NCBI RefSeq assembly: GCF_026151205.1
Contig: NC_087077.1
Coordinates: 12,126,983 to 12,190,982 of the forward strand
Source: Bolinopsis microptera
Taxonomy: Eukaryota > Ctenophora > Tentaculata > Lobata > Bolinopsidae
Direction of reading: 5' to 3'
DNA length: 64,000 nucleotides
Shown here: piece after piece, positions 5,601 to 8,600 of the stretch
Layout of the letters: every line of letters begins with the position of its first letter
Position numbering within the stretch: position 1 is the first letter of the stretch
Translations under genes and position numbers: made by a program
Notes under the pieces: model-generated
Databases searched by the model: none
What the model was told of the DNA's origin: nothing
What the model saw: only the letters and a program-made list of their open reading frames with translations

Positions 5601-8600
5601 TCTCTCTCTCTCTCTCTCTCTCGTACAAGTAGGCTAATGATCGTGTATTTAACAAATCCGCTGAGCTGCACACACACACTTTCTGACCTACACACAAATA
5701 CACGTTCCAACCAAAGTTCGTCTCAGTGACACTACCAAAATACAACTTGTAATTAAGGAAATCTAGAAATTTAAAACTTCTCCGCCGTACTTGGCACACG
5801 TGTAGTATGCAGATTTAGTATAACAAGTGTTACTAGTGTACACGTTTCTGGTGTTCGGCCGACCCCGGCTTGCATACATTTTACCGATTACCGAGGACTG
5901 CCGAACAATTTTCTGCTATCAGTATGGGTTTCGCTGCGCAGTAATAGCACTGTAAAAACAGCTACCTGGTAACGATACTGACAGTCGTGTTACACTTACA
6001 ATACTGACAGTTTGGGGGGACTGTAAGAATGTACAATTATTAGGTCACGGGAGTGACAAGTGTAGCCAATATAGTAACAATAGTTTCGCGTGTGTCCGTT
6101 TATGTGCAGGGCGAAGCACTTACTATAAGTACTGTCCTTTCGTTTTGATTATTGTACATGTTTTATTCGTTCTGATCTCCTCATAGTTAGTGGTTCTGAG
6201 CTATCGGTCCTTAGCTTGGGAGGGAGCAACAGTCTTAAAATGCACCATTTAACCTGAAGTTTCAATCTATCTGCATCGGATCCTCATTTAAAAAACGTTT
6301 TTGGACCTTAGTAAATAGCCTTTAATTTGGGTGCTGCAAGGAGCAGATAATTCGTAAAAACAAAACTGCAGCAATAATCTTATCATTGACCTTGGCCCTG
6401 GGTGGCCATAGTAACTTGCCGACTTTTTTCTACCATAAAGCCGTGAACCTTTAAGTTGTTTTCTTAATTAACAAAATTAGACCAGAGTGCGAATAACAGT
6501 CTGTCCGGAATGTCGCCATCTGCAGCGAAAAGAGAGAAATTTTTTTCAGGGCCGTATCAAAAATATTGTGGTGCACTGTACGCACAGTGCACACCATACG
6601 CGATGCACACTGAACGTGGCGTACACTGTACGCACACTGTACGCGATGCACACTGTATGTGGCGTACACTGTGCGCACACTGTACGCGATGCGCACGGTA
6701 TGTGGCACGGCAGCATGCGTACCCGGTGAAACACCATGGACGCAACCAATTGACACATTAATGTCACTAAAATTAATTACACCTCATCATTTCAGCCGAT
6801 GTCACAGCTGGGTAACATCGTACTATTCTCATCTGTATGGTTTACTGATAGTCAGCAAGAGAAGAACGAACGTTACTTCCTCCTCTTCTCTGAGTGGCTT
6901 ATTATACTGTCCGTGGACACGCCCTACAAATTCATTGTAAGTCACTCCCCTTTATTACCCTACAAGTTCATTGTAAGTCACTCCCCTACAAGTTCATTGT
7001 AAGTCACTCCCCTTTTTTATATACACCCTACAAGTTCATTGTAAGTCACTCCCCTTTATTACCCTACAAGTTCATTGTAAGTCACTTCCCTTTTTTATAC
7101 TGTCCGTGGACACGCCCTACAAGTTCATTGTAAGTCACTCCCCTTTATTACCCTACAAGTTCATTGTAAGTCACTTCCCTTTTTTATACTGTCCGTGGAC
7201 ACGCCCTACAAGTTCATTGTAAGTCACTCCCCTTTATTATATACACCCTACAAGTTCATTGTAAGTCACTCCCCTTTATTAGATACACCCTACAAGTTCA
7301 TTGTAAGTCACTCCCCTTTATTACCCTACAAGTTCACTGTAAGTCACTCCCCTTTTTTATATACACCCTACAAATTCATTGTAAGTCACTCCCCTTTTTA
7401 GATACACCCTACAAGTTCATTGTAAGTCACTCACCCTACAAATTCATTGTAAGTCACTCCCCTTTTTTACCCTACAAATTCATTGTAAGTCACTCCCCTT
7501 TTTTACCCTACAAATTCATTGTAAGTCACTCCCCTTTTTTATATACACCCTACAAGTTCATTGTAAGTCACTCCCCTTTTTTAGATACACCCTACAAGTT
7601 CATTGTAAGTCACTCCCCTTTTTAGATACACCTTACAAGTTCATTGTAAGTCATTCCCCTTTTTAGATACACCCTACAAGTTCATTGTAAGTCACTTCCC
7701 TTTTTTAGATACACCCTACAAGTTCATTGTAAGTCACTCCCCTTTTTTATATACACCCTACAAGTTCATTGTAAGTCACTCCCCTTTTTTACCCTACAAG
7801 TTCATTGTAAGTCACTCCCCTTTTTTACCCTACAAGTTCATTTTAAGTCACTCCCCTTTTTTACCCTACAAGTTCATTTTAAGTCACTCCCCTTTTTTAC
7901 CCTACAAGTTCATTGTAAGTCACTCCCCTTTTTACCCTACAAATTCATTGTAAGTCACTTCCCTTTTTTATATACACCCTACAAGTTCATTGTAAGTCAC
8001 TCCCCTTTTTTACCCTACAAGTTCATTGTAAGTCACTCCCTTTTTTTACCCTACAAATTCATTGTAAGTCACTCCCCTTTTTTATATACACCCTACAAGT
8101 TCATTGTAAGTCACTCCCCTTTTTTACCCTACAAGTTCATTGTAAGTCACTCCCCTTTTTTATATACACCCTACAAGTTCATTGTAAGTCACTCCCCTTT
8201 TTAATATACACCCTTCAAGTTCATTGTAAGTCACTCCCCTTTTTTACCCTACAAGTTCATTGTAAGTCACTCCCCTTTTTTATACTGTCCGTGGACACGC
8301 CCTACAAGTTCATTGTAAGTCACTCCCCTTTTTTATACTGTCCGTGGACACGCCCTACAAGTTCATTGTAAGTCACTCCCCTTTTTTACCCTACAAGTTC
8401 ATTGTAAGTCACTCCCCTTTTTTTACCCTACAAATTCATGTAAGTCACTCCCCTTCTTTTCGCTTTCACTTCAGAATTTAGCGCTAGTCTGTTTCACTCT
8501 TGCATTTAGCTTCGGATATTGATAATAAAATTAGGTTTCATTATTCGGATTCCCATTCAGGATTCCCTTTGGATATTATTATAAAAGTTTATCATTATTG

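Follow-up and report, generated by a model that had tools for sequence, protein, structure and literature searches.

Minisatellite-like arrays straddle several splice junctions of a PIX homologue in the ctenophore Bolinopsis microptera

In one intron of the ctenophore Bolinopsis microptera, the end of the preceding exon and the GTAAGT that follows it are repeated in tandem over 1.5 kb, and the locus raises the question of where such an array of splice donors came from, what its copies would do to the encoded protein, and why the gene tolerates it. An earlier note, made from the letters of the sequence, had drawn attention to this array. The window, that is, the whole stretch of 64,000 nucleotides that was analysed, is C6:12126983-12190982 of an assembly of 264.65 Mb in 232 contigs. 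Coordinates 5' of the window are written as negative numbers, and the genome position is 12126982 plus the coordinate.

The gene was modelled by aligning the Mnemiopsis leidyi protein P0001 (615 aa) over its whole length, which gave 16 exons and 15 GT-AG introns on the plus strand, beginning about 8.6 kb before the window start and running to 11815, with a stop codon that ends at 11818; among the residues aligned inside exons, 564 of 603 are identical. Pfam recognizes CH, SH3, and RhoGEF domains in this Mnemiopsis orthologue and makes no PH call on it, and exon 12 matches the PH entry 1v61 of human ARHGEF6 (E 8.9e-5). Exon 12 also agrees with Mnemiopsis leidyi PIX at 45 of 47 residues, which bears out the earlier attribution of this exon to PIX. 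Judged from its sequence, with the order CH, SH3, RhoGEF, and PH, the gene is identified as a homologue of PIX (ARHGEF6/7). A pseudogene or a stray fragment is rejected, since the PH exon used as a query has a single match in the assembly and the 16-exon model spans the whole Mnemiopsis protein. The part of the model that lies around the array is as follows.

2642-2764, plus strand: PIX exon 9 (P0001 alignment)
3057-3202, plus strand: PIX exon 10 (P0001 alignment)
3339-3451, plus strand: PIX exon 11 (P0001 alignment)
6796-6936, plus strand: PIX exon 12, first part of the PH domain and source of the array (alignment and 1v61 match)
6937-8682, plus strand: intron 12, 1746 nt, or 222 nt without the array
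8683-8785, plus strand: PIX exon 13, joined to exon 12 in phase 0 (P0001 alignment)
11043-11144, plus strand: PIX exon 14 (P0001 alignment)
11363-11466, plus strand: PIX exon 15 (P0001 alignment)
11651-11818, plus strand: PIX exon 16, stop included (P0001 alignment)

Intron 11 holds, on the same strand, an open frame of 321 aa (3955-4917) with a PLAT domain and a secreted-like start.

The array consists of the last 15 bp of exon 12, from 6922, together with the first intron bases, and it continues unbroken to 8460. Beyond the authentic exon end, 38 extra copies adjoin the exon without a gap, and the monomers are spaced by 26-53 bp, mostly by 36 or 42. GTAAGT stands in all but two adjacent monomers, which read TTAAGT. 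The array is therefore real and lies where the earlier note had placed it, and nearly all copies keep the donor hexamer, as had been claimed. Four units were said to carry about 25 bases of upstream coding sequence; four such units exist, the additional exon sequence amounts to 17 bp more than in the 36-bp unit, and they translate as ILSVDTPYKFI.

6922-8460, plus strand: donor array of 39 monomers, the exon's own end counted, GTAAGT in 37
7097-7129, 7186-7218, 8282-8314, and 8335-8367, plus strand: units with extra upstream exon sequence (coding matches)

Intron 12 is 1,746 bases long, and the array accounts for 1,524 of them; the median of 50 introns from four mapped genes is 222.5 nt, next to the 222 nt that remain when the array is subtracted.

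Repeats of this kind can be inflated, collapsed, or wrongly stitched during assembly. The B. microptera assembly was produced with wtdbg and polished with Pilon, a combination that can miscount repeats, RNA-seq and Iso-Seq having been used in its annotation (PMC10232365), and one of the amphioxus arrays discussed below was misassembled in a draft genome (PMC3087553). Against an artefact, the units differ in both sequence and length and follow one another in a non-periodic order, and boundary-spanning repeats also occur at three other PIX junctions and in an advillin-like gene. In addition, 1.5 kb is short relative to long reads. We regard an artefact as very improbable; the existence of the array is safer than its exact unit count, which may be inexact because of the way in which the assembly was made.

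The source of the repeated sequence was sought in homologous proteins. Mnemiopsis PIX and three close homologues, presumably from ctenophores (P0002, P0003, and P0011, of which P0002 comes from a 1,962-nt contig encoding 615 aa, presumably a transcript), read across the exon 12/13 junction as TPY, one variable residue, F or V, and then IDK or IDR, with no insertion. This agrees with the origin proposed in the earlier note: because the exon end is conserved coding sequence in the homologues, they indicate that the array is derived from the end of PIX exon 12. The alternative of a satellite that is present elsewhere and landed on the exon is unsupported. An assembly-wide pattern search allowing up to two mismatches, by a method that may pass over very common words, gave 38 forward matches, all of them within the exon 12 array and the authentic copy included, with no match on the reverse strand and none for a reversed-pattern control.

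The consequences of choosing one donor or another were read from the sequence with exon 12 spliced to exon 13. With donor 1 the protein is the conserved one; with donor 2 it gains VSHSPLLPYKFI in frame (+36 nt). Donor 3 shifts the frame and brings a stop soon after, and all later donors lie beyond an in-frame stop, so the frame is kept by one of the 36 extra donors.

6961-6972, plus strand: exon-like end before donor 2 (VSHSPLLPYKFI); no other extra donor keeps the frame open into exon 13
7000-7002, plus strand: in-frame stop in any transcript using donors 4 to 37

The expectation that later copies would add residues or stops is thus correct as to stops for donors 4 to 37, and in-frame residues come from donor 2 alone. 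Likewise, the reading 'PYKFI then VSHSP', which had been attributed to many units, is in frame at the start of the array and only there, as read-through from exon 12 is halted by a stop once 21 residues have been added. Internal pseudo-exons formed from units with TTTTTTAG were considered and rejected, since every AG in the exon 12 array scores below the lower quartile of 50 mapped acceptors.

The dozens of donors had been described as equally good. They match one another, yet they are not strong sites: ATT|GTAAGT lies at the 10th percentile by a matrix built from 50 donors of the four mapped genes, the exon 12 donor included. Substitutions were found at 2 of 228 positions within GTAAGT and at 14 of 912 in the rest of the unit (Fisher p 0.75; 38 monomers, the last having been dropped for an indel, with one polymorphic column excluded). 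This comparison across 38 monomers, which has little power, gives no signal of selection either keeping or purging GTAAGT. The suggestion that the array serves as a decoy or sponge for U1 is unsupported, the hexamer being neither better nor worse kept than its surroundings.

Two further large junction arrays, both upstream of the window and hence beyond the reach of the earlier note, were identified in the same gene, together with a small duplication at exon 9.

C6:12119502-12120079 (window -7480 to -6903), 3' of exon 4: donor array, 14 donors in all
C6:12120727-12121076 (window -6255 to -5906), 5' of exon 6: acceptor array, 14 acceptors in all
2727-2847, plus strand: exon 9 donor region duplicated once in tandem; the two copies share 57 identical bases, and the second has an 8-nt insertion

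The exon 4 array is a cleaner case than the exon 12 array, its 41-bp units being 99% identical and each carrying 28 bp of exon end followed by GTAAGA. At exon 6, units of 25-27 bp have CAG followed by a sequence nearly identical to the first 19 bases of the exon; the acceptors read CACCCAG or similar, and the unit contains TAATAAC. Stops follow from all 13 extra donors of exon 4 and from all 13 extra acceptors of exon 6, and the second exon 9 donor, if used, would also lead to a stop. Duplications are therefore present at 4 of the 30 PIX junctions (exons 4, 6, 9, and 12); an automated junction search gave three, missing exon 9 because of its 8-nt insertion. As a post hoc observation, the last exon base is not G at the duplicated donor junctions (exons 4, 9, and 12), G being found there in 10 of the 15 PIX donors (-8533 to 11466).

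Arrays of this kind are already described, in amphioxus and in human. The name mirage was given to minisatellite-like repeats across intron-exon boundaries of amphioxus Adh3, and such repeats are also reported in the amphioxus globins BflGb6 and BflGb9; they occur at 5' as well as 3' boundaries, are unstable in length, and leave splicing regular (PMC3087553); TnC and PGBD5 have been added to the list (PMC3902484). In the excerpts of these papers drawn on here, mirages share with the PIX arrays a boundary-spanning position, 5' or 3', and splice signals in many units (PMC3087553, PMC3902484). In PIX, the tandem units contain sequence from both the exon side and the intron side of a real splice junction, and besides the GTAAGT copies of exon 12 there are 14 copies of GTAAGA at exon 4 and 14 of CAG|GTTCT at exon 6, authentic sites included. 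The differences are that the PIX arrays belong to another phylum, comprise 39, 14, and 14 units against 3-6 in BflGb6, and lie as three large arrays in one gene.

In human ABCA7, intron 18 contains a VNTR with a 25-bp unit right after exon 18, present in about 12 to 427 units; one-unit retention is 2 +/- 1% and independent of length, and longer arrays bring more skipping of the following exon (PMC5954066). As in this VNTR, in which the first two bases of the unit are the donor GT, the exon 12 array starts at the exon and takes in its donor. The ABCA7 unit begins at GT, whereas the PIX units also carry exon sequence, and the ABCA7 array is polymorphic with measured splicing effects, whereas PIX is represented by one assembled haplotype. 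Because the ABCA7 VNTR and the amphioxus mirages had been described (PMC5954066, PMC3087553, PMC3902484), the statement in the earlier note that no case this extreme was known has to be withdrawn. A boundary tandem duplication that multiplies splice signals, as in PIX, is also part of the Rogers model of intron gain and of the potato RdRp case (PMC4974935); a new intron is formed there, whereas in PIX an existing intron is enlarged and no new one is seen. Finally, an intronic minisatellite, the VNTR in intron 6 of hTERT, is said to affect splicing (PMC3948165). No boundary-spanning minisatellite of a ctenophore was found in the open-licence PMC literature, in which the ctenophore search was narrow. 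As far as this search goes, the ctenophore phylum and the presence of several large arrays in one gene are new, and so is the weak indication, given below, of a preference of large arrays for junctions.

We consider it probable that the PIX arrays are mirages in this sense, namely junction-straddling minisatellites that are mostly neutral and at which the exon-nearest site is chosen by exon definition. The exon 12 array would have been founded by tandem duplication of a segment straddling the exon 12/intron 12 junction, probably at short microhomology; read by eye, candidates are TTATTA, in exon 12 and in the first unit, ATAA at exon 4, and TAAC at exon 6. Expansion and homogenisation by slippage or unequal exchange would then have followed, and the net result would be a short intron 12 lengthened about eightfold, with mostly neutral effect. 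The neutral view is supported by the lack of a sign of selection on GTAAGT in the substitution test and by the rest of intron 12, which has the length of the median intron.

Exon definition pairs the 3' splice site of an exon with the nearest 5' splice site across it, and an exon-nearest rule would select the first copy in donor arrays and the last copy in acceptor arrays. A first-come rule would explain the donors only and an intron-proximal rule neither type of array, which favours exon definition as the rule that would fit all of them. Regular splicing in the amphioxus mirages (PMC3087553, PMC3902484) and the low, length-independent retention of one unit in ABCA7 (PMC5954066) speak for the mirage explanation as well. 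The arrays would be tolerated because the exon-nearest site is used, and since nearly any other copy leads to a premature stop, leakage would be removed by nonsense-mediated decay (NMD). A point that counts against exon definition is the shortness of the mapped introns: half of the 50 do not exceed 222 nt, and introns of about this length or less are usually associated with intron definition.

A functional interpretation was also weighed. On this view the copies would serve as decoys or poison sites, and PIX output would be reduced by way of transcripts that carry stops and are sensitive to NMD, perhaps in a manner tunable by copy number. Nearly all extra sites in the three PIX arrays do give stops, although any intron sequence would be expected to bring them, and GTAAGT has been no better preserved than the remainder of the unit. 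Expression of ABCA7 drops as its array lengthens, but in the excerpts of that report drawn on here the authors did not ascribe the drop to NMD of mis-spliced forms (PMC5954066), and the amphioxus mirages are, in the corresponding excerpts, reported without splicing disturbance (PMC3087553, PMC3902484). Taken together, we find such a function improbable as the explanation of the arrays. Some effect of the PIX array on expression is possible, since longer arrays raise next-exon skipping in ABCA7.

The count of duplicated junctions was extended to those other genes in the DNA examined for which a model could be built. Local copies were found at 0 of 34 junctions of NCAPD2 (condensin subunit 1), at 1 of 32 of advillin, and at 0 of 4 of SAMDC, the SAMDC model having been built from a protein with only 223 of 328 residues identical; an RGS-PX gene in the window and an RRM gene have no intron in the aligned part.

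C1:5041039-5041418, continuing upstream to C1:5042549: intron of an advillin-like gene with 23 acceptor-like CTATCAG sites, authentic included

The annotated B. microptera advillin protein uses the last, exon-nearest acceptor, which speaks for the exon-nearest rule. Among the 22 others, use of 19 would close the reading frame before the end of the next exon, and 3 would leave it open that far.

Minisatellite expansion might be favoured at exon-intron junctions in B. microptera rather than placed at random. This proposal concerns origin and is compatible with the mirage explanation; we regard it as less likely than not, and the same reserve applies to its possible causes, for instance transcription, R-loops, or splicing-linked repair that expose junctions. 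Tandem repeats are abundant in the DNA examined, arrays of period at least 10 occupying 46,856 of its 323,983 bases. PIX, NCAPD2, and advillin together hold 8 arrays of at least 5 copies, of which 4 span a junction, with 0.21 expected (p 6.6e-5), and an excess persists without the exon 12 array (3 versus 0.17 expected, p 7.6e-4); without PIX it is reduced to 1 versus 0.10 (p 0.095). In the same three genes, 4 of 30 arrays span a junction when no copy cut-off is applied (1.18 expected, p 0.03), and 3 of 7 do so at a cut-off of at least 8 copies (0.16 expected, p 6e-4), where the exon 12 array is scored as non-spanning because Tandem Repeats Finder splits it. The share of PIX junctions that are duplicated points in the same direction.

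Counting by position argues against the proposal, as duplicated junctions were not commoner than duplicated positions in intron interiors in PIX (3/30 versus 436/1500), NCAPD2 (0/34 versus 40/1500), advillin (1/32 versus 100/1500), or SAMDC (0/4 versus 32/1500). Duplicated positions in exon interiors are rare (7/400 in PIX, 0/400 in NCAPD2, and 0/400 in advillin). Another run, on PIX alone, gave 3/28 for junctions, 385/1322 for intron interiors, and 0/56 for exon interiors. Since the sample is small and non-random and the cut-offs were picked afterwards, the junction preference is a lead only, and the array counts suggest no more than weakly that large arrays lie preferentially at junctions.

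A broader reading is that amplification in ctenophores is drawn to junctions, that many genes carry such arrays, and that exon definition leads the spliceosome reliably to the copy nearest the exon; we think this possible, though doubtful. If it were true, the genome would be a ready-made library of experiments in splice-site choice, and the arrays would continually supply material by which introns lengthen and new introns perhaps arise. The PIX gene by itself offers a natural test: its 37 donors share one core sequence and lie at graded distances, whereas in acceptor arrays the correct site comes last, and such arrays could separate first-come, intron-proximal, and exon-definition rules of splice-site choice. 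Ctenophores have been argued to be the sister lineage to all other animals. With boundary-spanning minisatellites found in amphioxus, in human, and now in a ctenophore, the process may be general where minisatellites are common.

Two other arrays were considered and rejected as boundary arrays. The 36-bp array at 49288-49677 contains TTTGCAG; it begins a few bases past a putative donor (about 49268), so that the donor itself is uncovered, and the putative exon beside it has no Pfam match. The array at C1:5066597-5067258 consists of units of about 20 bp with GGGTAAGTTA or GGGTGAGTTA (minus strand), which resemble the donor of a nearby exon that is putative and lies outside the gene models built here.
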